From positions 1-24,283 of the IMG/VR virus record IMGVR_UViG_3300032286_001872: a DNA stretch of 24,283 bases; one strand, given 5' to 3'. A model generated the notes under the pieces. It did not search any database. It saw only the letters and a list, made by a program, of their open reading frames with translations, and was not told where the DNA came from. Of this stretch, positions 1,706 to 22,946 are shown one piece after another (the stretch's first letter is position 1; each line of letters opens with the position of its first letter). The DNA comes from a virus. A program made the position numbers and the translations under genes.

Positions 1706-3232
1706 TTAATTTTTAAATGAAATGCGTTTACCAACCGCGTATGTGTTTTCGATAACGATGTTACTTTCCTGTAATTTGTGAATGCCACCTTCTAATGCAT
1801 CTGGAAAGTCCATTACTTTAGAACTTGGAGAAACATCTAACATTTGATCCTCGGCACGTTCCATGTCGGGTGTATCTTTTAACTTTTCATCAAAGATTAA
1901 ATCGCCATCCCGGTGTATTGGTTCCAGTGTTCCCTCGATACGAAAATATTTATCAGGTTTGTTCCTGGTGTCTTTTGAAATTGGTAATCGTGACTTACGA
2001 ATTAAAGAACGTTTGCGTATTTCAGGTTGAATAACTTGCTCATAGAATGAATCCTGTAATGAATTGTTTTCTATCCAAAGTCGCTTGGTGTCCACCTTCA
2101 TTTTAGTAAGGTATTCGTGCGCATCAAATAACCAATCGACAAATTTTGAATTGCTTGTTTGATCTACTCTTAACCAATATACAAAAAATTGAAAATGTTT
2201 GTAGCCAATCACTACAACGGCTTTACAGCTTGCTGAGCCGCCGCTTTTATCCTTATTAGATGTTGAAGGGTCAGCATACACAACTACTTTTTCACACGTG
2301 TGAATAGCAGGAACTCTACCGTATTTCAATTGCTTGAAAACTTTACCACGCTTCATTGGGTTATTGAAGTACTCTCCCTGTGCAGCGTTATAGCTTATTT
2401 TGGAAAGCGTTCTATCAATCATTTCCTCCGTGTTCTTGGTTGGCCATGTTGATTTACCATCTTTGTCACGTATATTGATCACCTCAAAGCAATCGGCTTT
2501 TTTTGCAAGTTCAGTGACCGTTGTTTTTTTGGCAATGATGTTACCACAAATGATAATTAACATTGGATTGGAAATGGAGCGGGTACCAAATAAGGCCTTT
2601 TCTACCCACTCAACCTTTTTATCAATTCGGTCAGGATTACGTACCTCCTCATCTGTGTCAATATCATCCACAAGAATTACATCGGGACGCACTTCATCTT
2701 TCCTGGTACCACGAGGAGATTGTCCTGCTCCGATAGCTCTAAAGGAAACACCGGGTTTAGTAATGAATTCCGTTGAAGTCCAATTGCCAAGGCTTTCTTG
2801 CTCGCCGTAATCATTTTTGACACGAAGATTAGATTCTAATAAAGACTTATAGGGCAATAACAAACGCTCTGCGTCTGTGAGTGTGGCCGATACCATCAGT
2901 ATGTTTTTCTTTTTGCCTGTTACGGCTAAGAAAAGTACCTCCATCATTGTGCGAGCAGATTTGGCAAGCTCACGCGACCACGCACGCACCTCAAACCATT
3001 CGGGATTGTTTAAAATACGTTTGGATGCCTTTAAATGAAACGGTGCGGGCTCTGAGGAATAGAATAATGAAAAGTAATATTTAAACCACTCTTCAGGGTT
3101 TTGTTCCAAGCGTTTGACACGTTTTATTTTTTCCGCTTCGCTTTCACCAGGATCAATGGAACTGGACGCGGCAATGCTTGTTCTAAATGACTGCCAATCC
3201 TGTAAATACTGTTTATCTGTATATTTTGCCAT
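1706..3232 (-). CDS. Phage terminase large subunit (ATPase + nuclease), Mu gp28-like
   Basis: This 508-residue protein is the packaging motor. The N-terminal half is an ATPase: a degenerate Walker A-like stretch SRELAKS at residues 86-92, a clear Walker B DVILVDDID at 184-192, and a hydrophobic coupling strand IIICGN near 226-231. The block SPRGTRKDEVRP at 172-183, just before Walker B, resembles Mu-type large terminases. The C-terminal half is an RNase H-fold nuclease: YADPS with D321, an acidic strand LWIENN with E388, and MDFPDALEGG with D475/D478. Length is normal for the family. It starts 2 bases after the small-subunit stop. The Walker A lacks the usual GKS/GKT glycine, as in several phage motors, so activity is expected but not proven. 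Confidence 0.92.
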   Translation of the reverse strand: MAKYTDKQYLQDWQSFRTSIAASSSIDPGESEAEKIKRVKRLEQNPEEWFKYYFSLFYSSEPAPFHLKASKRILNNPEWFEVRAWSRELAKSARTMMEVLFLAVTGKKKNILMVSATLTDAERLLLPYKSLLESNLRVKNDYGEQESLGNWTSTEFITKPGVSFRAIGAGQSPRGTRKDEVRPDVILVDDIDTDEEVRNPDRIDKKVEWVEKALFGTRSISNPMLIIICGNIIAKKTTVTELAKKADCFEVINIRDKDGKSTWPTKNTEEMIDRTLSKISYNAAQGEYFNNPMKRGKVFKQLKYGRVPAIHTCEKVVVYADPSTSNKDKSGGSASCKAVVVIGYKHFQFFVYWLRVDQTSNSKFVDWLFDAHEYLTKMKVDTKRLWIENNSLQDSFYEQVIQPEIRKRSLIRKSRLPISKDTRNKPDKYFRIEGTLEPIHRDGDLIFDEKLKDTPDMERAEDQMLDVSPSSKVMDFPDALEGGIHKLQESNIVIENTYAVGKRISFKN

Positions 3233-3234
3233 AC

Positions 3235-3672
3235 CTATTTCATACGAGTTAAAATGTATGCGTCAAAGTAAGTAGTAGCTTCTTTTGCTTTATCAACATC
3301 AATTTGGCGCAGGAATTCAATAAATCCTTTTGCAACTTCAATCGTTTGGCCAACCGATGTCTCCACCTCTAGGCGTTGAATAGAAGTTGTGAGCATTGCA
3401 ATCGACTGGATTTCTTTTAGGTTGCCAAATTTAACTTCACGACTTTGGATGTCTTCATTTATGGCCTGCAATTGCTCGTATAATAGGAATAAGTTGTGGT
3501 CTTTTGTAACCAACATTGATTTGCGCATTTGTTCCCATTTGCCATCCTTTGCCCATTTACTAAGTGTGCGCTCAGACACATCTACACGCTGCGCTATTTC
3601 CTTTTGACTTAGCTTTTCATTGACAAATAGCATTCTAGCAAACTCTTTTTCTTGCGCTTTACTGATTCCCAT
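3235..3672 (-). CDS. Phage terminase small subunit (helix-turn-helix DNA-recognition protein)
   Basis: This 145-residue protein probably recognises phage DNA for packaging. Residues about 20-45 form a helix-turn-helix (LSQKEIAQRVDVSERTLSKW) followed by a KDGKWE turn, the pattern of small terminases related to the DUF1804 and Mu gp27 groups. The remainder is predicted helical, with heptad-like spacing, suited to oligomerisation. It is the first gene of the leftward unit and is followed at 2 bases by the large subunit. The ATG at 3672 is preceded on the minus strand by AAGGAAGTT, a fairly good Shine-Dalgarno for this phylum. An alternative reading as a transcription regulator is less likely given its place directly before the motor gene. 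Confidence 0.8.
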   Translation of the reverse strand: MGISKAQEKEFARMLFVNEKLSQKEIAQRVDVSERTLSKWAKDGKWEQMRKSMLVTKDHNLFLLYEQLQAINEDIQSREVKFGNLKEIQSIAMLTTSIQRLEVETSVGQTIEVAKGFIEFLRQIDVDKAKEATTYFDAYILTRMK

Positions 3673-7007: not shown

Positions 7008-7358
7008 ATGAACACAGATTTTTTTAAAGCAAATCCCTCGTTAAACGAGTATTTTGAAACATCAGATGGAAAGAAATTCTATACTGAAAACGCAGCACAA
7101 AACCATGCTAAAGCAAAAGCTTTGAAGGATAGAACAGTTAACCACGTTGAACGACCTGAGGAACTGGAGCAAAAGGTTGTTGTGCCTCATTCACCTGAAA
7201 AGAAATTGTCTAAAATGACAAAAGCAGAGTTGAAAGCTTTGGCTGCTGAATTAGGCATTGAGGTGACGGACGAAACCAACGCTGAATTGGTAGTACTTAT
7301 CGAAACTGCTCAAAACGAATCACAAACTCCCTCAAACGAGGACAATACTGAAGCATAA
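7008..7358 (+). CDS. Small charged protein with Rho-N/SAP-like motif, neck or sheath-adjacent
   Basis: A 116-residue hydrophilic protein of unknown role. I chose the ATG at 7008, which sits 11 bases after the spanin stop, over an upstream start inside the spanin gene. Residues 67-95 contain LSKMTKAELKALAAELGIEV, a helix-turn-helix-like pair of short helices of the Rho-N/SAP/LEM type often found at the end of phage structural accessory proteins. The C-terminus is acidic and low in complexity. Its stop overlaps the sheath start by one base (TAATG), so it is translated with the sheath. Small genes at this place in Mu-like phages (gp37/gp38 region) act in the neck, which is a possible role here. 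Confidence 0.65.
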   Translation: MNTDFFKANPSLNEYFETSDGKKFYTENAAQNHAKAKALKDRTVNHVERPEELEQKVVVPHSPEKKLSKMTKAELKALAAELGIEVTDETNAELVVLIETAQNESQTPSNEDNTEA

Positions 7359-8566
7359 TGTTACCAGGAATAAACATTGAATTTGAAAACGGAAACTTAG
7401 GAACGGTTGTTCCAAGTGCCGATGGTATTTTAGGAGTAATTGCGCACGCAACTGCTCCTGAGGGAACACCTACTTTTGATTACAGAACTCCGTACCAACT
7501 GAAAAGTTTGGCAGCGGTTGAAGCTTTGGGAATTATTGACGATGTGGAAAACCACGTGCTTCATAAATTCTTCAATGAGTTCTTTAACATTGCCGGAACA
7601 GGAGCAGAGATTTGGTTGATTTGTATTTCTAAAGAAGATTTACTAATAGACCATTTTGCGACAGATGGCGCTATTGAAGCATTGCTAAATACCGCTAATG
7701 GAAGTATTAAGGGCTTAGCTTGTGTGAACAATTCAGGTGCTTCAATTACAATTGAGGATGGATTGTCAGACGAAGTATTGCCATTGGTTAACGCCGCGCA
7801 AATCTATTGTGTGGATTACATGAACCGCAAAAACGTTCCTGTATTCACATTGGTGGAGGGCTTTGCCTTCAACGGTACACCGAGTGCCCTACCTGACTTG
7901 AATGAAGCAAATTTCAACCGAGTTGCTATATTGATCGGCGACACGGATTCAAGAACTGGAACGTATGCTTCCAAAGGTGCAGCACTTGGCTTATTGGCAG
8001 GTCGCATTGCAAAGAACTCAGTTCACGTAAACATTGGTAAAGTGTTAGACGGTGCAATTACTGCAGGAGACGTCTTCATCAAAGATACTGCGCCCGAGCT
8101 GTTCGATGTTGAGGCATTGCACGACAAAGGATTCATTTCTTTCCGTAACCACAATGGTCGTTCGGGTTACTTCTTTACGGATGACCCTATGGCAACTGAT
8201 GGAACGGAAGACTACGCACATATCACCAACAGACGCGTAATTGACAAGGCGTATAGAATCGCTTACGATACTTTGCTAGATGAAGTCTTGGCGGACATTC
8301 CGGTAACGAATACTGGAACCATTCACTCTTCTTACATCAAAACGTTAGAGGGTCGAGTTTTGGGAGCACTTAAAGCTAACATGACGAACAATGGCGAATT
8401 GTCGGCTGATGCTGCAGACCCAAATGATTTTGGTGCAATTTGTAAAATCAGTTCTACACAGAACTTGGTAAGTACCTCAAGAATTACGTTGGAATACTTG
8501 CGCGTTAGACCGAAAGGCATCGCTCGATACATTGATGTGCCACTTGGATTCGTGGCTTTTAACTAA
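7358..8566 (+). CDS. Contractile tail sheath protein
   Basis: This 402-residue protein forms the contractile outer tail tube. It has the N-terminal start MLPGINIEF and a repeated alpha/beta pattern with Gly-rich turns, and ends in a domain containing LEYLRVRPKGIARYIDVPLGF (about 378-398), similar to the C-terminal handshake region of DUF2586-type sheaths in Bacteroidota phages. Directly downstream are a 135-residue tube protein and then the tail chaperone, the invariant gene order of myoviruses and R-type tailocins. Size is on the short side for phage sheaths. It shares one base with the upstream stop codon. Confidence 0.85.
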   Translation: MLPGINIEFENGNLGTVVPSADGILGVIAHATAPEGTPTFDYRTPYQLKSLAAVEALGIIDDVENHVLHKFFNEFFNIAGTGAEIWLICISKEDLLIDHFATDGAIEALLNTANGSIKGLACVNNSGASITIEDGLSDEVLPLVNAAQIYCVDYMNRKNVPVFTLVEGFAFNGTPSALPDLNEANFNRVAILIGDTDSRTGTYASKGAALGLLAGRIAKNSVHVNIGKVLDGAITAGDVFIKDTAPELFDVEALHDKGFISFRNHNGRSGYFFTDDPMATDGTEDYAHITNRRVIDKAYRIAYDTLLDEVLADIPVTNTGTIHSSYIKTLEGRVLGALKANMTNNGELSADAADPNDFGAICKISSTQNLVSTSRITLEYLRVRPKGIARYIDVPLGFVAFN

Positions 8567-8584: not shown

Positions 8585-8992
8585 ATGTCATTTGATACAA
8601 GACAATACGAATGGGCTGACTTAACGCTCATTTTAGGAGGTAACGACATCACAGGTTTCAGAGGAGTGAAATACTCTGAAAAAATCGAACGTGAGCCAAT
8701 TTATGCTAAGGGCAAACATCCTCATAGCATTCAATCGGGTAATGTTGCCATTGAAGGAGAAATAACTTTGTTGCAATCAGAGCTTTTGGCTTTAGAGAAT
8801 GCTGGTAATGGTTCCATTTTAGGCTTGAGCTTAGATGCTGAAATCAACTACGGCAATCCACCAGATGCTTCAAGAACCGACCGCGTTGTTGGTTTACGCT
8901 TCACAGAAGCACCAAAAGAATTGAAGCAAGGCGACAAATTCATGGAAATCACTTTACCATTCATCGCACTACGCGTGCAAAATAATATTTAA
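8585..8992 (+). CDS. Tail tube protein
   Basis: This 135-residue protein should form the inner tube that is pushed through the host envelope. Size and the alternating beta-strand pattern (WADLTLILGGNDITGFRGV near the N-terminus, then NVAIEGEITLLQ and a C-terminal EITLPFIALRVQ) fit the gp19/FII-like tube fold, a beta barrel that stacks into hexamer rings. It sits between sheath and tail chaperone. An 18-base A/T-rich leader precedes it and the next gene starts one base after its stop. No catalytic residues are expected. Confidence 0.8.
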   Translation: MSFDTRQYEWADLTLILGGNDITGFRGVKYSEKIEREPIYAKGKHPHSIQSGNVAIEGEITLLQSELLALENAGNGSILGLSLDAEINYGNPPDASRTDRVVGLRFTEAPKELKQGDKFMEITLPFIALRVQNNI

Positions 8993-8993
8993 G

Positions 8994-9284
8994 ATGTACA
9001 AGCCAACAAAAGAAAGAATTGCCGAGCTGAAGGCCGAGCACGGAGAAATCTTCATGATTAGTGTAGAAGATAAAGCGGCTATTTTCAAAGCACCAAATCG
9101 CAAAACCTTAAGCTATGCTAACAACGCGAAGCAAGACATCGTGAAATTCAATGAAACGATTTTGAATGCTTGTTATGTTGAAGGGGACAGAGAATTGCTA
9201 GACAATGATAAGTACTTTTTAGCAGCTGGTGCAAAAGCGATTGAACTGATAGAAATTAAGGAGGCAGAGATCGTAAAGCTTTAG
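8994..9284 (+). CDS. Tail assembly chaperone, short (zero-frame) form
   Basis: A 96-residue protein between tube and tape measure, the place of the tail assembly chaperone (the role of lambda gpG, P2 gpE, Mu gp41). It is mostly helical and charged, with FKAPNRKTLSYANNAK around residues 33-48 and ends EAEIVKL. It probably binds the tape measure protein and brings it to tube subunits. In this family a minor, longer form is made by ribosomal frameshift; a frameshift signal and an open downstream frame are present here (separate entries). The gene starts one base after the tube stop. Confidence 0.8.
   Translation: MYKPTKERIAELKAEHGEIFMISVEDKAAIFKAPNRKTLSYANNAKQDIVKFNETILNACYVEGDRELLDNDKYFLAAGAKAIELIEIKEAEIVKL
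9258..9278 (+). promoter_or_regulatory. Programmed -1 ribosomal frameshift signal
   Basis: AAGGAGG at 9258-9264 is a near-perfect Shine-Dalgarno sequence inside the gene. Ten bases downstream is the slippery tetramer A-AAG at 9275-9278, where a lysine tRNA on AAG can slip back to AAA. The same spacing of internal Shine-Dalgarno and A-rich slip site is known from E. coli dnaX. The zero-frame stop is at 9282-9284, two codons past the slip codon. The -1 frame has been open since 9260 and runs to 9445. Confidence 0.75.
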
Positions 9285-9445
9285 AGGCTTCTGAGGTTAA
9301 TCCAGATGATTGGATTAGAATTGCTAATTCAAATTTGAGGAAGTACTACAATATTCAGGAGCCTGATTTACTCAGCGACCAAGAGTGGTGTATGAGAGTA
9401 CAAGAATTGAAATATTTAAGAATAAAAGAGGCTGAGAAATCTTAG
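9260..9445 (+). CDS. Tail assembly chaperone, -1 frameshift extension (T-domain-like)
   Basis: The -1 frame is open from 9260 to a TAG at 9443-9445. After slippage at K95 it adds 55 residues (beginning ALEASEVNPDDW), giving a fused protein of 150 residues. The frame has no usable start codon near its beginning, so it makes sense only as a frameshift product. The stretch PDDWIRIANSN and a closing helix rich in E/K and L look like real coding sequence and resemble the second part of known G/GT-type chaperones, which contacts tube monomers. Its last codons form the 5' arm and loop of a terminator hairpin. Confidence 0.78.
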   Translation, partial: GGRDRKALEASEVNPDDWIRIANSNLRKYYNIQEPDLLSDQEWCMRVQELKYLRIKEAEKS

Positions 9446-9454
9446 CCTCTTTTT
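9424..9454. terminator. Strong bidirectional hairpin terminator
   Basis: AAAAGAGGCT at 9424-9433 pairs perfectly with AGCCTCTTTT at 9444-9453, and the stem extends by three more pairs (one G-T) to a four-base AAAT loop. It is flanked by A's on the left and T's on the right, so it works on both strands: it ends rightward transcription after the chaperone and leftward transcription of the small membrane protein gene. Confidence 0.85.
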
Positions 9455-9476: not shown

Positions 9477-9734
9477 TTAAAACAAGGAATAAATTAGAAT
9501 TGCAGCTATTGAAAGAGAAACAATTTGAATAATAAACTCTCCAACGGCCATAACTTTTTGCTCTTTAGTTAAAGTATTAAAAGTTGCTGGAGATAGTTGA
9601 CCAAATACTCTTTCCAAATTAGGTATTAAACCTGAAAAAGTTGCTGTCACGTGATTAGTTACTTTAGGAATTGACCTAATGATTAAGTAAAAAAACGCAG
9701 ACAAACCCACAATTACAATAATGGCAAATAACAT
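9477..9734 (-). CDS. Small two-helix membrane protein, possible moron / superinfection protein
   Basis: Minus-strand gene for an 85-residue protein from the ATG at 9734, filling the 275-base space between chaperone and tape measure. It has a hydrophobic helix at about residues 2-18 closed by R20, a 45-residue polar loop (PNLERVFGQLSPATFN near the middle), and a second helix at about 64-84. I recognise no family. The frame extends further upstream, but that part is antisense to the tape measure and has no hydrophobic or regular pattern, so the start at 9734 is preferred. Its start overlaps the tape measure start by 14 bases. Small antisense membrane genes inside phage structural operons are often morons expressed by the prophage, for example to block superinfection; a holin-like role is also possible. 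Confidence 0.55.
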   Translation of the reverse strand: MLFAIIVIVGLSAFFYLIIRSIPKVTNHVTATFSGLIPNLERVFGQLSPATFNTLTKEQKVMAVGEFIIQIVSLSIAAILIYSLF

Positions 9735-12252
9735 AGCATATATTTTAAGTCTTAACGACCAAATCTCATCTAAGTTAGGTAAAATCTCTGGAATGGGAGA
9801 TACTGCCGTTAAAAAATTTAAAGCTTTGTCCGAAATGACCAAAAAAGTTGAGACTACCATGCATGATATGGGAAACTCTGTTGGTTCTTTAAGACAAAAG
9901 CTAGAATTACTTAAAGCCGAAAAGGAGTGGATACCACAAAGTAATTTAAACTCCATTCGCGCTTACAATACCGAAATAAAAAAACTGGAGAAAGAAATCC
10001 AGCATTTAGATACCATCAATGGCAGTGTGTTCAAAAGAAACATGAAAGATGCCATTTCAAACTTGCCCTTTAGCAATTTAATTACAAACCCAGTTGCTTT
10101 AGCAGGCGCAGGTTTATTTTCCGCTGGGAAAAGCGCCTTTGACTTTGAGGAGGGAATGGCGAAAATTAATACAACCGCACAATTATCACAACCAAATTTA
10201 GAAAAGTTAGGTAAAAACCTAAGAAGTATTGGAGTTGAATATGGTGCAGATTTAAACACTGTTCCAGATGCTTTTGAAAAAATACTCTCTCAAACTGGAG
10301 ACGTTAAAGTTTCAACTGATATTTTAAAACAAGCTTTAAAAGGTTCTAAGGCAGGTTTTACAGACCAAATAGTAGTTGCTGATGCTCTTGCGCAAACCTT
10401 ATCTGTTGTCGGAAAAGAAAATACGAATGCAAAAGAGGTACTAGATACCTTTTTTCAAGCAAAAAACGTTGGAGCAGGAGAGTTTAAAGATTTTGCCCAA
10501 TACATGCCAGGACTAATTGCCTCAGGAAAAGCACTTGGTATTAATTTCAAAGAAACAGCTGGTGTATTTTCATATATGACAGGAAAAGGACAAAGTGCCG
10601 AACGTTCTGCCGTTTTAATGGAAAATGCTTTTTCTGCTTTAGGTAAAACAGACATTCGTGAAAATTTAAAAGCTGAGGGAATCAATGTTTTTGATGAGAA
10701 GGGAACCATTCGTTCAATGACTGCCATATTTAAAGATTTGGAAAAACGAATGAAAGGAATGAGTAATGAAGATAAGTCCTCCTTTCTTGCAAAAATGGGA
10801 TTGGTTGATAAAGAAGCTCGTTCCGCATTTATCATTATGACAGATGAAACCAAGAAGCTTTCTAATGTTATGAATGAGGTTAAAAACTCGACCGGAGCGG
10901 CCGATGAGGCGCTTAAAAACTCAATGAATAATAAACAGAAACTCCAACAACTTTGGTCAAGAATTCAAGATTTATCAATTACACTGGGTGGAGCAATTGC
11001 AGGTGTTTTAGTTCCTGCTTTTGATATTTTAGCTTCTGTATTAAGCCCAGTATTAAGTGCTACCTCATGGCTTATTGAAATGTTTGATCAAAACAAAACA
11101 GTTATAGTAACATTGGCGGCTGTTTATGGTGCTCTTTGGGTAGCCTCTAATGCAGATCTTGTGATGAAAAAATTATTAGCTGTTTGGGAAGGAAGATCAA
11201 TAATTCAGAAAAAACTTAAAGTCGCTTGGATTTGGCTTGAGAATATCGCAGTAACTGCAGTAACTGGTGCCATAAAGTTATTGATTGGTGCTGAGAAGGT
11301 ACTCAACGCTGTTATGGCTATGAATCCTTTTGGTGCGGTGATTGTTTTACTTGCGGGCTTAGCCGCTGGTGCTTATGCGCTTACAAAAATGCTTAAAGGT
11401 GCTTCTTTACACACCAAAATAATGGGAGAGGTAACGAAGGAAGCAAATATGCGGATGATTGATGAAAAGGTGGCATTAGATCAACTTTTCGGACAGTTAA
11501 AGAAAACGAATCCAGGTACTGAAGAAAGGAAAAAATTAGTTGAAGAGTTAAATCAAAAATATCCTGACTTACTTGATAAATATGATTTAGAAACAGCCAA
11601 ACTTAAGGATTTAGATAAAATCCAAAAAGAGGTTTCTAAAAATATGTACAAGAAAATCACTCAAGAAATAAAAGTAGAAAAGGCTAAAGAGTTGATGAAA
11701 TCCGCTGAGGATATGAAAGATAATTGGGCCGGTTTTGGTTCAACAAGTAGAGCAAATGAAATCAAATGGAAAAAAATTAAGGCACTTCAAAAAGAAGCAC
11801 AGTTATTACTTGAAGAGGCAAATAAACCAGAGGAAGAAAAGAAATCAAAACTTCAAAAACAGGTCGATGCACATCAAAAAATTGTCGAACTTCTTGACAC
11901 TGAGGAAAAGATTAATGCAAAAATTCAAGAGTTACAGGGATTAAAGGGAAGTGAGAAAATTGGTTCAAAAAAGTATAAACAATACATCGCCGAAATCTCA
12001 CGACTTCAAAAATTACTCAATGGAGGCAGCTCATCAGGTGGAGGTGGTAAAACAGGTGTGGGAGCATCCACCAACGAAGCAATTGCAACTGGAGGAGTAA
12101 AACAAACCACAATCAACTTAAATTTTAAGAATGTGGTGGAAAGTTTAGTGGTACGCGCTACGGATTTACAAAACAGCGCCGACCAAATAGAGCAACAAGT
12201 AGGCGATGCTCTTTTGCGCACTTTAGGTATGGCAGTAACAACGGCAGGATAA
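9721..12252 (+). CDS. Tail tape measure protein (TP901-type)
   Basis: This 843-residue protein sets tail length and sits inside the tube. Residues 30-100 are charged and coiled. About 140-400 is the TP901/PhageMin-type core, opening FDFEEGMAKINTTAQ and including GAGEFKDFAQYMPGL and KGQSAERSAVLMENAFSALG. Three hydrophobic stretches follow at about 418-455, 461-481 and 535-558, typical of regions inserting into the host membrane on DNA ejection. Residues 600-770 are lysine/glutamate-rich coiled coil, then a Ser/Gly linker and a short C-terminal domain that should contact the baseplate. No peptidoglycan hydrolase domain is visible. It follows the antisense membrane gene and overlaps its start. 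At about 0.15 nm per residue the tail would be near 125 nm, an inference. Confidence 0.92.
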   Translation: MANNIAYILSLNDQISSKLGKISGMGDTAVKKFKALSEMTKKVETTMHDMGNSVGSLRQKLELLKAEKEWIPQSNLNSIRAYNTEIKKLEKEIQHLDTINGSVFKRNMKDAISNLPFSNLITNPVALAGAGLFSAGKSAFDFEEGMAKINTTAQLSQPNLEKLGKNLRSIGVEYGADLNTVPDAFEKILSQTGDVKVSTDILKQALKGSKAGFTDQIVVADALAQTLSVVGKENTNAKEVLDTFFQAKNVGAGEFKDFAQYMPGLIASGKALGINFKETAGVFSYMTGKGQSAERSAVLMENAFSALGKTDIRENLKAEGINVFDEKGTIRSMTAIFKDLEKRMKGMSNEDKSSFLAKMGLVDKEARSAFIIMTDETKKLSNVMNEVKNSTGAADEALKNSMNNKQKLQQLWSRIQDLSITLGGAIAGVLVPAFDILASVLSPVLSATSWLIEMFDQNKTVIVTLAAVYGALWVASNADLVMKKLLAVWEGRSIIQKKLKVAWIWLENIAVTAVTGAIKLLIGAEKVLNAVMAMNPFGAVIVLLAGLAAGAYALTKMLKGASLHTKIMGEVTKEANMRMIDEKVALDQLFGQLKKTNPGTEERKKLVEELNQKYPDLLDKYDLETAKLKDLDKIQKEVSKNMYKKITQEIKVEKAKELMKSAEDMKDNWAGFGSTSRANEIKWKKIKALQKEAQLLLEEANKPEEEKKSKLQKQVDAHQKIVELLDTEEKINAKIQELQGLKGSEKIGSKKYKQYIAEISRLQKLLNGGSSSGGGGKTGVGASTNEAIATGGVKQTTINLNFKNVVESLVVRATDLQNSADQIEQQVGDALLRTLGMAVTTAG

Positions 12253-17835: not shown

Positions 17836-20022
17836 TTAAATTTCAAATGACCACGTGTGTGTTTTGTGGTCATTTGAAATTACTAATTTTGGTATTTTGA
17901 ATTTTTCGAATATATCAAGAATTCCGCCACCTGTTAATGAATAAACTGTAAACGTATTGTTTTTCAAGGGCTTGATATTTCCATAAATAGAAGGAATAAT
18001 TTGCTTTCCATCCCAATTGATAACCCCAGAACATTTTGTTAATTGGGTTTCATTTTTTAGACACGCTCCTTCAACAATTTTAAAACCCTTCATTTGATTT
18101 TCTTGAATTTTCAATTGACTTTTTGAGTCGTCAAAATTCAAATAATAATATTCCCAAGTTGTTCTTTTTTCAATCTGAGCAAAGGCAAAAAAACCATCTA
18201 CTCGCTTTTGTTCAATCGATGCGTATACACTCAACTCTACACATTTATCATAAACAAAAGGATAGACAATTTCATTAAATTGGTTGACGATTCCGTATTT
18301 ACCAATGTCTTTTTTAAGTCGAACACTTAGATAGAAATTTCCTTTTTGATTCACTAAAAAATTGTTTTCTCCATACATCAATGGAATTGTGAAATAACCT
18401 TTTTTGTGCAACAAGCCATATTTTCCATCACGTCCAACTCGACAAAAGCCATTCTTCACATTTTCAGCAAAATCAAAATATTCAGGTGACAATAGTTTCC
18501 CTGTGGAGTCCATTATGTAGAATTGTTTGTTTATTTCGATGGTTGCTATTCCATCTTCAAAACAAGTTATTCTGTCTGCTTTGATCGGACAAATTTCTCT
18601 AAAATCATAATCGATAAATCCCCACAAACCGTCTTTTTGAACAGAAATTCGATTTTCGCGTACACACATCAGATTGTCGTAAATACTTGAACGATTGGAA
18701 GGGTTTTTAAGATCAATAAATAAGTGTTTTCCTTCCACAACCAATTTATATACACCATCAGCATATTTATAAACGTCAGTAATCGCAAAATCAAGAAAAC
18801 GATTTCCATCGTGATCAGTAACTGCTAATTGATTGTTCAAATCGTAAACCTTCAAGAAGTATTCGTCTAAAACCTGAATCGATTTAAACACTTCTGTACT
18901 TACTTTATCAAAATTCATATCTACTAATCGCCACTTTGCACTTTTGACAAGTTGGGATGCATCGTTCATACTAGCGTCGTAGCCAATCATCAACGTATAA
19001 TCATCTATTTTCCAAATGTCGTGATACAATTTATCAGAAATCATTTGGTTTTTGGCATCAACTAAAGCTCGTTCTTGATAGTTTGGACCTACAACAAAGC
19101 GATTTCTATTAATGATATTGAAAACTTGATAATTCGTTTTAAGTACATTTTTACCCGAGGAATCAATCACATTCCAGTCATTAGCAGCTTTATAAACGAA
19201 AAAACCATCGCGGGAATAAATTTCTGCAACGGGCGAAAATGGAGCCAAATAACGTTTGTTGTCCCACGAAATAAATCCATATAAATTTCCAGCTTGAAAT
19301 TCATAATTCCCGACCATATAACGGGATTTTTGAACTATTTTATATTTCATTGGAAGCTGTTCTTTACCAAATCGATTGATCATTCCATATAAACCATCTT
19401 TTCTGACAATCAATTGATTATGCACAAAATCCGAATAAATAATTGAATCGTAAGCGATGTTGTTTATAGGTTTAAATGTTGCGTCGTACAAATAATATGA
19501 TTTGTCTTTTTTTACGATAAATGTCGAATCAATGTACTGAATATGGTCAAATTCGATTGGAAAAACCAAATTACCTATTGTGTCAATCAAACCCACTTTA
19601 AAAGACGAACAAACCTTATAATCATTGAATTGACAGTTATAAATTGGATACAATTGATTGTAACCTGAATCATCGTTTCCGATATTATTGGAAGTGTTTT
19701 TTGCCTTAATTTTATGAGCAATCGGTTCTTCTTTGTGAAGATAATCTCGTGTAAAAAGACGCTTATCAAGATTGTTAAAATCGTTGTAGGTTTTTGTGAC
19801 TTCACCCAAATTATTTCGAAAAACATAGATGGGTAAATTTTTAAGTTCCTCTGCGTTTTTTGCAGTTGAAATAAAAGCTTTGGTTTCAGGATACCATTGC
19901 TTTTGCTTCACTTCTAAAAGTTGAATTGTTCCATAAATTGGATGAAAAACAGTGTCTAATACTTGTTGCGCTGTACTTTGAAAGTTGAAAATAATCGCGA
20001 GAAAGAGGAGTAAATTTTTCAT
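17836..20022 (-). CDS. Secreted WG-repeat protein
   Basis: A 728-residue protein from the ATG at 20022 (an in-frame TTG five codons upstream is unlikely). The first 20 residues are a signal peptide (KNLLLFLAIIFNFQSTAQ), so it is exported to the periplasm or outer face. From about residue 130 onward it carries many WG (KWG) repeats of about 25-45 residues: units such as GLYGMINRFGKEQLPMKY, LWGFIDYDFREICPIKAD, KYGLLHKKGYFTIPLMYG and KYGIVNQFNEIVYPFVYD, which likely fold as a beta-propeller or beta-solenoid. No catalytic domain is visible. WG-repeat proteins are frequent in Bacteroidota, with unknown roles. It has its own promoter (20064-20096) and converges on the phage tail operon. Host gene, not phage. 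Confidence 0.8.
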   Translation of the reverse strand: MKNLLLFLAIIFNFQSTAQQVLDTVFHPIYGTIQLLEVKQKQWYPETKAFISTAKNAEELKNLPIYVFRNNLGEVTKTYNDFNNLDKRLFTRDYLHKEEPIAHKIKAKNTSNNIGNDDSGYNQLYPIYNCQFNDYKVCSSFKVGLIDTIGNLVFPIEFDHIQYIDSTFIVKKDKSYYLYDATFKPINNIAYDSIIYSDFVHNQLIVRKDGLYGMINRFGKEQLPMKYKIVQKSRYMVGNYEFQAGNLYGFISWDNKRYLAPFSPVAEIYSRDGFFVYKAANDWNVIDSSGKNVLKTNYQVFNIINRNRFVVGPNYQERALVDAKNQMISDKLYHDIWKIDDYTLMIGYDASMNDASQLVKSAKWRLVDMNFDKVSTEVFKSIQVLDEYFLKVYDLNNQLAVTDHDGNRFLDFAITDVYKYADGVYKLVVEGKHLFIDLKNPSNRSSIYDNLMCVRENRISVQKDGLWGFIDYDFREICPIKADRITCFEDGIATIEINKQFYIMDSTGKLLSPEYFDFAENVKNGFCRVGRDGKYGLLHKKGYFTIPLMYGENNFLVNQKGNFYLSVRLKKDIGKYGIVNQFNEIVYPFVYDKCVELSVYASIEQKRVDGFFAFAQIEKRTTWEYYYLNFDDSKSQLKIQENQMKGFKIVEGACLKNETQLTKCSGVINWDGKQIIPSIYGNIKPLKNNTFTVYSLTGGGILDIFEKFKIPKLVISNDHKTHTWSFEI
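17839..17881. repeat. Long perfect inverted repeat at the 3' end of the WG-repeat gene
   Basis: AATTTCAAATGACCAC (17839-17854) and its exact reverse complement (17866-17881) flank an 11-base loop. It overlaps the last codons of the minus-strand gene. It probably works as the hairpin of a terminator or a transcript-stabilising end for that gene, although the following tract is poor in T. Confidence 0.6.
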
Positions 20023-20063
20023 AGAAAGATGCACCAATTGTACAGCTAAGGTAAGGATTGGTT

Positions 20064-20096
20064 CAAAAGTAGGATAATAATAAGTTAAGTTATCAA
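20064..20096 (-). promoter_or_regulatory. Promoter of the WG-repeat gene
   Basis: On the minus strand TTG (20096-20094), 22 bases, then TACTTTTG (20071-20064), a perfect match to the Bacteroidota TTG-N17-23-TAnnTTTG consensus. The start codon follows 41 bases downstream. Confidence 0.65.
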
Positions 20097-20129
20097 TTTT
20101 CAGTGAAACTATTCTAATTTGATGCGTTA

Positions 20130-20149
20130 TTGGTGTATATTTACACCAA
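20130..20149 (+). promoter_or_regulatory. Palindromic operator before the toxin-antitoxin genes
   Basis: TTGGTGTA and TACACCAA form a perfect 8-base inverted repeat around TATT. It contains TATATTTA (20136-20143), close to the -7 consensus TAnnTTTG, and ends 12 bases before the antitoxin ATG. A ribbon-helix-helix antitoxin bound here would repress its own operon, the usual control of ParDE modules. Confidence 0.65.
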
Positions 20150-20161
20150 AATTAATTCAAA

Positions 20162-20401
20162 ATGAAAAGACAAAGTATTTCTTTCACCGAACCGAATGAT
20201 GAATGGTTGAAAAGTCAAATTGCAAGTAAAGAGTACGCTAGTAAAAGTGAATTAGTGAATGAATTAATCAGACAAGCTCGTAAACAAGAAAAGCAGATTG
20301 ATTGGATTCGTGAAAAAATTGATTTAGCTGAAGCGAGTGGATTTACTCGCGACAGTAAAGCAGATATATTAAAGCAATCCAAAGAACTATTGAATGACTG
20401 A
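20162..20401 (+). CDS. ParD-type antitoxin (ribbon-helix-helix)
   Basis: A 79-residue protein whose N-terminal part, RQSISFTEPNDEWLKSQI, gives the beta strand and first helix of a ribbon-helix-helix DNA-binding fold, followed by KEYASKSELVNELIRQARK, which matches the second helix of the ParD/CC2985 group. The charged C-terminal part (about 45-79) would wrap around and block the toxin. The gene follows a palindromic operator and overlaps the toxin gene by eight bases. Functions with the next gene as a type II toxin-antitoxin pair; dimers also repress the operon. Confidence 0.85.
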   Translation: MKRQSISFTEPNDEWLKSQIASKEYASKSELVNELIRQARKQEKQIDWIREKIDLAEASGFTRDSKADILKQSKELLND

Positions 20402-20681
20402 ATTTAGGTTAAGCAATGTTGCAAAAGACGATTTAATTAGAATACATCATTATGGTGTTGATAATTTTGGAATCAAACAAGCTGATTTATATTTCGAGGC
20501 ATTTTTTGTTCAATTTGAATTGATAGCTAAACGCCCTCTTGCTTTTGAATCTGTTGACTATATAAAACCGGGTTATAGAAAATGTCCTTGTGGCGTTGAC
20601 ACAATATATTATAGAATCAACAGCAATTTTGTTGAAATAATGACAATCATTAGATTTCAAGATTTGAAAAACATCAAATAA
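20394..20681 (+). CDS. ParE/RelE-type toxin
   Basis: A 95-residue protein of the ParE/RelE superfamily: an opening strand EFRLSNVAKDDLIRIHHYG, a helix with FGIKQADLYFEAFFVQFELIAKRP, then a turn around 55-70 with YRKCPCGVDTIYYRI and a closing strand VEIMTIIRFQDLKNI. ParE proteins inhibit DNA gyrase, RelE proteins cut mRNA at ribosomes; the closely related antitoxin favours the ParE side. Several conserved positions are present (R near the third strand, I-IRF-D at the end), so it looks intact. Its start overlaps the antitoxin stop, so the two are translated together. Confidence 0.85.
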   Translation: MTEFRLSNVAKDDLIRIHHYGVDNFGIKQADLYFEAFFVQFELIAKRPLAFESVDYIKPGYRKCPCGVDTIYYRINSNFVEIMTIIRFQDLKNIK

Positions 20682-20744
20682 GATTTTGAACCTTTTCTAA
20701 ATTTAGGTGTAATTTTTGATAAGCAATTTACCTATCTTTAGATT

Positions 20745-22946
20745 ATGAATTTTCTTAAACTATTAATTCTACTTTTTCCACTTTTGACTTTCGCACAAAC
20801 TAATTGTGAATTCAAGTATCAAAACAAAAAAGGAGGGAATTTTCTTTTTTCTATTTACTATGAAACGGATATGAAAACGCCGTTGAATGGAACATGCGAA
20901 ACAAAATACAATGATAATCGCATCTTTGAAAAACGCACCTTTCAAGACGGAAAATTGGTAGAAGAAATATTAAATTACGAAAGTGGAAGTTCAAAAACGA
21001 AAGTCAATCCCACTTGGAATACGCGCGATTCTGTCATTGCAACAATGGAACAATTTTGGCCAAATGGTAATCGCAAACAAACAAATATTTATTATTGGGA
21101 CAAAAACAAACGTCGCTGTGAAAAATACACCGATTATCACTTCAATGGTAAAGTACGATTTGTAAATTTCAACGCCTTTGCGAGATTGACTGAAATCAAT
21201 GAATACGACATCAAGGATTATCCACCTCACACAATTGATTACGATGGTTACACAACTTTACGTGTTCCTTTTGGTTTGGCACTAGAATACGATGATGCTG
21301 GAGTTTTGAAGTCGAAAACGACTCACAAAATGATTCTAAACGGTGGACATGAACATTCATCAAGGGAAGGCTTGTATGAAGATTACCATCACAATGGCAA
21401 ATTAAAAACAAAAGGATACTACAAAGATGGAGATCCCGATGGGAATTGGGTAATCTATAGTTTTACTGGAAACAAATACGAGGAGCAACATTACCAGCGC
21501 AACATGAAAGTTGGCACCTGGAAAGGCTGGTACGATAGCGGGAAACCACGTTTCGAATACGTTTATGACACGCTTTCAAATTTCATTTTTCACCCCAACA
21601 AAAAAGAATGGAATGAAGCCGGTTTACTTGTTTTGGAACGCTTCATTGACCGTAAAGGAAGGGGTTTTGAAAAAAAATGGGCAGACAACGGCACTTTGAT
21701 ACAGCATCTTGAGTTAGTTTACAACTCGAAAGAACAAGGTTCAGAGAAAAATTGGTATCCCAACGGTCAATTGAAATCATATTTAAACAATAACAGAAAG
21801 TCAGATACCACTTATGTGAGCTATTTCCAAAATGGAAAAATGGAAGAAATTCACCTGAAAACCAAAATCGAAATGGACGAAGTAATTTCCAATAAAAAAT
21901 GGAACGAATCTGGAGTTCTTATTTCATCTTTGACAAAAAGAACACGACCTGAAAACGAGCATTTTGAATATTTTGACTACTGGTCGAATGGAAATCCGAA
22001 AAAGTACATTTACCAATTGAATGAAACTCGATTGGAAGAAACTTACTATTTCAATGGTAAATTCAAAAGTACTGTCCGTACATTGAATGGAAAATTGGAT
22101 AGTAAATCAGAGCAATTTGATAGTACAGGAGTGTTATTACAAGAATATTATTACACCAACAACCTAAGAAATGGCTGGTGTAAACGCTTTGATAAAACTG
22201 GTAAATTGATTTTTGCACAATACTACGAAAACGGCTGTCCGAAAAAAATGCCAGGTGAATTACCTGCCAAAAAACGAAACTTCGAAGAACTTTCAAAAGA
22301 CGAAAGAGAACTGTTTGTAAGTTTTATTTACAACAACTTGAGTCAATACGTTTCGCCAAATGAAACACAATTATATTACACAAAAAAACAAGTAGATTCA
22401 ATCGCAACCTATTACATGTATTTGTTTGATACTTGGTCAAAATATGCACCTTTCCCATTTCCAAACCATCAAATTACAAGTCAAGTGATTAGTTTTCGAT
22501 TGCCAAGTGTTTATTTGACAGGACTTGAAAAAAGAGATACAATGGATAAATACGTAAGGGAAGTCGTTACTGCCTTTGAAAAAAATGGTTGGAAAATCAG
22601 TAATTTAAAATCTGAAAGCGGTTACCATAATTGGGATTTAAAAGTAGAAGGATTTTACACCCAGAAGTTCATTCAAACCCATTTTCCTTTACTTCAATCG
22701 TTTATTTATATTTTACCTCAATCAAAAAATGTAGAACCCTTAGAAACATTCAACAAAGTTCGTCATTCACGTCCGATAACAATTGCCCCTTATTCGAATT
22801 GTGTGGCGATTGCAAGCTCAAGTTCGTATGAAAAATCATTTCAATTTCTAATTTACTCAGATAGCGAAGTAGATTTATTGAATGGACGATCGTGGGAAGA
22901 TATTAACGAAATCAACGATTTTTCAAGGGAATTGCCATATGATTAA
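20745..22946 (+). CDS. Secreted MORN/YwqK-repeat protein with unrecognised C-terminal domain
   Basis: A 733-residue protein with a signal peptide at 1-17 (KLLILLFPLLTFAQ). Residues about 40-500 hold many MORN/YwqK-type repeats of about 20-25 residues: examples are WYDSGKPRFEYVYD, NWYPNGQLKSYLNN, YDDYxxNGK-type stretches such as YHHNGKLKTKGYYKDGDPDGNW, and FNGKFKSTVRTLNGK. Such repeats form elongated beta structures. From about 510 (ELSKDERELFVSFIYNNL) the sequence changes to a mixed alpha/beta domain I do not recognise. YwqK-family proteins are often labelled antitoxins in databases, but nothing here supports that. Its end overlaps the next gene by eight bases. Confidence 0.8.
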   Translation: MNFLKLLILLFPLLTFAQTNCEFKYQNKKGGNFLFSIYYETDMKTPLNGTCETKYNDNRIFEKRTFQDGKLVEEILNYESGSSKTKVNPTWNTRDSVIATMEQFWPNGNRKQTNIYYWDKNKRRCEKYTDYHFNGKVRFVNFNAFARLTEINEYDIKDYPPHTIDYDGYTTLRVPFGLALEYDDAGVLKSKTTHKMILNGGHEHSSREGLYEDYHHNGKLKTKGYYKDGDPDGNWVIYSFTGNKYEEQHYQRNMKVGTWKGWYDSGKPRFEYVYDTLSNFIFHPNKKEWNEAGLLVLERFIDRKGRGFEKKWADNGTLIQHLELVYNSKEQGSEKNWYPNGQLKSYLNNNRKSDTTYVSYFQNGKMEEIHLKTKIEMDEVISNKKWNESGVLISSLTKRTRPENEHFEYFDYWSNGNPKKYIYQLNETRLEETYYFNGKFKSTVRTLNGKLDSKSEQFDSTGVLLQEYYYTNNLRNGWCKRFDKTGKLIFAQYYENGCPKKMPGELPAKKRNFEELSKDERELFVSFIYNNLSQYVSPNETQLYYTKKQVDSIATYYMYLFDTWSKYAPFPFPNHQITSQVISFRLPSVYLTGLEKRDTMDKYVREVVTAFEKNGWKISNLKSESGYHNWDLKVEGFYTQKFIQTHFPLLQSFIYILPQSKNVEPLETFNKVRHSRPITIAPYSNCVAIASSSSYEKSFQFLIYSDSEVDLLNGRSWEDINEINDFSRELPYD

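Follow-up and report, generated by a model that had tools for sequence, protein, structure and literature searches.

The window analysed here, a virus record of 24,283 bases, carries a tail assembly chaperone gene in which a programmed −1 frameshift would join the zero frame to a C-terminal extension. According to this reading, to which as a whole we assign a probability of roughly 0.88, slipping would be brought about by a slip site and a downstream RNA stem, optionally helped by an internal Shine-Dalgarno (SD) sequence, and would yield two chaperone products. Conservation of the frame and the slip site, covariation of the stem and enrichment of the SD motif are all read directly from the sequences of related loci.

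Frameshift locus and selection of relatives

The features of the locus, all on the plus strand, are as follows:

7358-8566, plus strand: tail sheath (DUF2586), context
8585-8992, plus strand: tail tube-like protein (phrog_4579, tail protein), directly 3' of the sheath gene; search anchor
8994-9284, plus strand: zero-frame tail assembly chaperone (G-like); ATG at 8994, TAG at 9282-9284, 96 aa
9258-9264, plus strand: internal SD-like AAGGAGG, 10 nt before A_AAG; facultative in the family
9272-9278, plus strand: slip site C_GTA_AAG (tetramer A_AAG at 9275-9278); family consensus X_XNA_AAR
9278-9445, plus strand: −1 frame extension (T-like), 55 aa plus stop codon at 9443-9445
9285-9295, plus strand: 5' arm of the stem (AGGCTTCTGAG), starting 6 nt after A_AAG
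9310-9332, plus strand: predicted upper hairpin inside the stem (9310-9318 pairs with 9324-9332; MFE fold)
9354-9364, plus strand: 3' arm of the stem (TTCAGGAGCCT), 11 pairs with 9285-9295; the family stem covaries
9721-12252, plus strand: tape measure protein (PF10145 and many tape-measure PHROGs)

Coordinates were checked directly. The −1 frame is open from 9260 to 9445 and has no start codon, and a slip from AAG (9276-9278) to AAA (9275-9277) is predicted to fuse 95 zero-frame residues to 55 new ones, giving a protein of 150 residues. An earlier interpretation made from the letters of the window (the sequence-only reading) had given the same zero-frame end, the same startless frame and the same 55 residues, and had placed AAGGAGG ten bases before A_AAG; exactly 10 bases lie between the motif and position 9275. 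A 13-pair hairpin (9424-9453, −19.8 kcal/mol), with A and T runs on its flanks and terminator-like in both directions, overlaps the stop codon of the −1 frame and is also found in the loci L005 and L006.

The gene order sheath, tube, chaperone, tape measure is the same in the annotated phage Peternella_1 and supports the lambda G/GT-type position claimed in the sequence-only reading; for the tube-like protein, a match stronger than that to phrog_4579 is to phrog_9206, labelled major head protein. Upstream lie genes for a prohead protease (matching the Mu-like prophage I protein), a capsid protein and a CHAP-domain protein. The zero-frame protein has no Pfam match, and phrog_19076, which PHROGs lists as unknown, was found in all 34 family members scanned. 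Its AlphaFold model (pLDDT 93.6) most closely matched 3fgx (Z 8.4), YqbN (3klu, Z 5.0) and the HK97 tail assembly chaperone (2ob9, Z 4.5), with Foldseek E-values above 0.001 in the PDB and Z under 8 for the named chaperone. Taken together, fold matches and gene order make a lambda G/GT-type tail assembly chaperone the best reading of the gene, as judged from a modelled structure.

Relatives were gathered with the tube protein as anchor, because profile scans with chaperone alignments were unsuccessful, the alignments holding too few conserved stretches; the loci were thus collected without presupposing a frameshift. They were thinned at 80-85% identity, and those remaining are still related to one another. 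Tube-protein relatives in the genome collection sit in Bacteroidota genomes, which supports a placement in this phylum, and two isolated relatives, FPSV-S1 and Peternella_1, are Winoviridae. Both carry A_AAA_AAG at the slip site, and their annotation calls the chaperone gene product a hypothetical protein and omits the −1 extension.

The gap between chaperone and tape measure gene is far shorter in most relatives than in the window, where it holds a small hydrophobic ORF on the minus strand (9477-9728) that has no Pfam match and is conserved in frame in L006. A ParD antitoxin and ParE toxin gene pair (20162-20681) follows the structural genes of the phage. At 17836-22946 lie two ORFs of 733 aa, one with WG repeats (minus strand) and one with MORN_2 repeats (plus strand), which are possibly cargo or host DNA beyond the phage.

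Shifted frame and slip site

Of 163 distinct homologous loci, 162 keep the −1 frame open for at least 100 nt past the zero-frame stop, a figure that may change slightly as the automatic gene pick was wrong in a few loci (e.g. L094, L139, L158). Only L144 departs from this: its slip site is gone (GAA ACG), and its extension stops early. A +1 or −2 shift was ruled out because the +1 frame is open over the same minimum length in just 13 of the 163 loci. Mismatches within the extension are distributed 30/18/52% over positions 1, 2 and 3 of the −1 codons, which is the pattern of a translated frame, and a core of NAQLRYY.HI.DPDSLSDEEWA...ELEWIR is conserved. Judged by these alignments, conservation of the extension is far beyond chance and confirms the frameshift observation. 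The proposal of a programmed −1 frameshift at A_AAG with a 150-residue fusion, for which the sequence-only reading had suggested an alignment of homologous loci as a check, is supported by this outcome, the slip site being kept in nearly all loci.

Slipping would occur at a heptamer that lies one sense codon before the stop in nearly all relatives. Among 150 loci below 80% identity, the commonest heptamers are G_GAA_AAG (52), A_AAA_AAG (33), G_GTA_AAG (15) and A_AAA_AAC (15); A_AAT_TTA, A_AAC, A_AAA and T_TTT or T_TTC occur as alternatives at or beside the same place, with A_AAG, an established minimal −1 site in bacteria (PMC5009743), dominant. The base preceding the P-site codon equals the first base of that codon in 134 of the 150, and a Leu codon before a Gxx codon ends in G in 70 of 78 cases, compared with a CTG plus TTG usage of about 36% in these phages. 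We infer that this base matching reflects the requirement of a two-tRNA slip with partial re-pairing in the P site. The window heptamer, C_GTA_AAG, belongs to the minority that violates the rule. Across the aligned loci this seven-base rule, which the sequence-only reading had missed, is more widely conserved than the SD. In the Weeksellaceae prophages L091, L092, L096, L257, L259, L261 and L262, G_GTT_TTT replaces the A-rich slip site, a clade-specific switch.

Two explanations other than ribosomal frameshifting bear on these data. The −1 ORF could be a separate gene reached by coupled re-initiation, with the GGAGG shortly upstream of the junction as its ribosome binding site; this is very improbable, given that an ATG, GTG or TTG in the −1 frame before the conserved domain is present in just 20 of 156 loci, that the slip heptamer is conserved past coding need, and that the chaperone start codons of the same loci are themselves without GGAGG. 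RNA polymerase slippage on an A run, producing edited mRNAs that join the frames, would suit the longer A runs of some relatives, e.g. ATAAAAAAG; the A run is just three long in the window (GTAAAG) and three or four in many relatives, however, and the conserved 3' stem and positional SD signal described below point to ribosomes, which leaves polymerase slippage with hardly any probability.

RNA stem downstream of the slip site

Folding of the 80 nt past the stop codon is more stable than in dinucleotide-shuffled sequences (mean z −1.89, standard error 0.16, n=125). RNAalifold returned no consensus structure for 58 diverse sequences. The analysis turned to counting the pairs of one specified stem, controlled by shuffles and slides; no Rfam family matched above the curators' cut-off. 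In the commonest classes of relatives the 5' arm starts 5-6 nt after the slip site and the 3' arm ends 88-93 nt from the start of the stop codon. The stem scores 17.2 against 11.9 in synonymous shuffles that keep the protein, a difference of 5.28 ± 0.46 (standard error, n=155) or about 11 standard errors, and the same test begun at control positions elsewhere in the extension gave differences of 1.5, 0.6 and −0.1. Three length classes, each one codon apart from the next, have their best register at 90, 93 and 96, the register moving with codon insertions and deletions. Covariation amounts to 0.193 compared with 0.137 ± 0.008 in shuffles, with 39 versus 12 double changes and no equal among 500 shuffles, and in a second length class, aligned separately, to 0.439 compared with 0.174 ± 0.038 (0/500 shuffles); one pair of the stem occurs as all six standard pair types across relatives. 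On these comparisons the long-range stem is a main cause of the excess folding past the stop. The upper stem covaries weakly in relatives (0.147 against 0.106 ± 0.008), and a slid control scores equally high (0.156 at slide −2).

At the level of single loci, 39% are individually significant for the stem (p≤0.05). For the window stem, synonymous shuffling gives p of about 0.01; its register (i+j=85) is one of the rarer ones and is shared with L089. The sister locus L005 has neither a strong stem nor a strong SD. The presence of the SD and the strength of the stem showed no link on the tree. As far as the compared loci indicate, the 3' stem, which had gone unnoticed in the sequence-only reading, is more widely conserved than the SD, many relatives keeping it.

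Mushuvirus mushu (L340), which infects an Oscillospiraceae host and whose tube protein is distant, shows a −1 extension of 70 codons following the gene next downstream of the tube gene (2972-3328 and beyond), immediately followed by a very stable predicted RNA stem (−45 kcal/mol). A structured signal of this kind may thus reach beyond Bacteroidota.

Shine-Dalgarno sequence upstream of the slip site

GGAGG is present in 28 of the 132 loci outside Weeksellaceae, compared with 10.3 expected from codon choice under a model with independently chosen codons, and the sequence 5' of the slip site is more complementary to the anti-SD than synonymous codon choice would make it (z about −6). This SD-type enrichment 5' of the slip codons is confined to spacings of about 4-11 nt. 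At Lys-Glu codons, AAGGAG is used in 21 of 52 cases at this spot versus 16 of 198 elsewhere in the same loci (p=1.3e-7, a value weakened by sequence relatedness). By clade, GGAGG is clearly enriched in Bacteroidales (13 of 45 loci, 5.5 expected) and not enriched in Flavobacteriaceae and close kin (1/23, 0.9 expected) or in Weeksellaceae (0/20, 0.8 expected).

The AAGGAGG of the window might nevertheless be an accident of its Lys-Glu-Ala codons and play no role, with the slip site and 3' stem doing everything. This would agree with the lack of the motif in L005, the window's sister and closest distinct relative, and in most other relatives, with the 24 changes that the tree requires for GGAGG in 26 of 120 rows, with the unenriched Flavobacteriaceae, and with Bacteroidia ribosomes hiding their anti-SD, which is sequestered with bS21, bS18 and bS6 (PMC9976891, PMC8710568). 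It is opposed by the observed signal strength, reached in none of 500 synonymous shuffles, by the over-use of AAGGAG relative to the same dipeptides elsewhere, and by the restricted spacing and repeated independent appearance of the motif; we give it a considerable chance, though one short of even. Most Bacteroidia moreover keep an SD-containing frameshift site in prfB (PMC9976891, PMC8710568), and its retention despite the hidden anti-SD makes SD use during elongation plausible.

Weeksellaceae were considered as a natural experiment on the SD, since their 16S rRNA tails read CATCTCATT (Elizabethkingia, Chryseobacterium, Halpernia) or CATCTCTTT (Apibacter) in place of CACCTCCTT. The contrast does not discriminate, because 0.8 occurrences were expected among the 20 loci and Flavobacteriaceae with a normal tail likewise show just one in 23; matches to the altered anti-SD were not significantly enriched in Weeksellaceae loci either (z −1.1).

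The sequence-only reading had described the frameshift as driven by the internal SD. The motif does stand out, its codons being over-represented at this spot across relatives, but an element found in about one fifth of relatives, absent from L005 and gained or lost some 24 times cannot be the conserved driver. A fair reading of the sequence comparisons is that the SD would act as an optional booster, recruited repeatedly. Selection of the upstream GGAGGC as an alternative partner for the 3' arm of the stem (GCCTC/T), rather than as an SD, appears improbable: the 3' arm could also pair with GGAGGC, which is similar to the 5' arm GAGGCTG, yet GCCT in the 3' arm is hardly more frequent in loci with GGAGG (14/30) than in those without (44/126).

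Proposed mechanism and related systems

Under the preferred reading of a −1 frameshift at slip site and stem, most ribosomes would read 8994-9284 to the TAG and produce the 96-residue chaperone. A minority would slip one base back, with the tRNA-Lys on AAG (9276-9278) re-pairing on AAA (9275-9277), and go on to 9445 to yield the 150-residue fusion. The slip sequence and the long RNA stem 6 nt downstream (9285-9295 with 9354-9364) would favour slipping, which the stop codon just past the slip site perhaps also promotes; in the window phage and about one fifth of its relatives, a further contribution probably comes from the SD, located 10 nt upstream, through base pairing with 16S rRNA. For the two products, roles like those of lambda gpG and gpGT are probable: the shorter protein would bind the tape measure protein, and the extension would recruit tail tube subunits. 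Frameshift efficiency, stimulation by stem and SD and these protein roles are what we infer from the features of the locus.

As a whole, the signal resembles by analogy a cassette of the dnaX/IS911 type placed in a lambda G/GT-type gene. The frameshift in the tail assembly chaperone of phage lambda and its relatives (Levin 1993; Xu 2004; as reviewed in PMC5009743) likewise lies near the end of a gene between tail tube and tape measure, uses a slip site ending in A_AAG and gives a short and an extended product, as predicted here. The C-terminal extension in the shifted frame, conserved in 162 of 163 loci and rarely provided with its own start (20/156), fits membership in this group, while no sequence-family match was found. 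The lambda slip site is G_GGA_AAG, whereas those of the present loci are mostly G_GAA_AAG, A_AAA_AAG and G_GTA_AAG, followed one codon later by the stop and by a conserved, covarying 3' stem.

In E. coli dnaX an SD lies about 10 nt upstream of the slip site. Both systems combine an upstream SD and an A_AAG-type slip with a 3' stem shortly downstream, after a spacer of 6 nt in the window. The 10-nt SD spacing of the window, in which the sequence-only reading had seen the geometry of dnaX, agrees with that cassette. In place of the dnaX heptamer A_AAA_AAG the window has C_GTA_AAG (A_AAA_AAG is found in 33 of 150 relatives). In further contrast to dnaX, where the shift yields a shorter product, the product here is longer, the SD is optional, and the loop closed by the stem is much larger and contains an upper stem. 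The IS1222 transposase shares A_AAG after a non-AAA codon and the IS911 transposase a large 3' structure, there a three-way junction (PMC5009743); gene and function differ, and the comparison of structures is an analogy. In Bacteroidia, whose anti-SD is occluded, prfB (PMC8710568) likewise has an SD-like element within its coding region; Weeksellaceae, with their altered anti-SD, lack it. The prfB shift is +1, and spacing and gene differ.

Implications

A literature search outside subscription journals found no description of a −1 frameshift in the chaperone of these phages. We tentatively suggest, at less than even odds, that the tail chaperone genes of Mu-like Bacteroidota phages contain a so far undescribed family of structured signals for recoding, consisting of a slip heptamer and a covarying bipartite hairpin of about 90 nt, with the SD repeatedly recruited as a booster in Bacteroidales phages. 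The loci supply more than 100 natural variants of one −1 frameshift signal and correct the annotation of a whole group of prophages and phages from Bacteroidota, namely Winoviridae and their kin, the extension having been missed in the annotated records examined. They also offer a testable handle on whether Bacteroidota ribosomes use the anti-SD while elongating, for which prfB was the only case found in the literature searched. If the suggestion is true, an anti-SD that is hidden at initiation would become available to the mRNA during elongation in these ribosomes.
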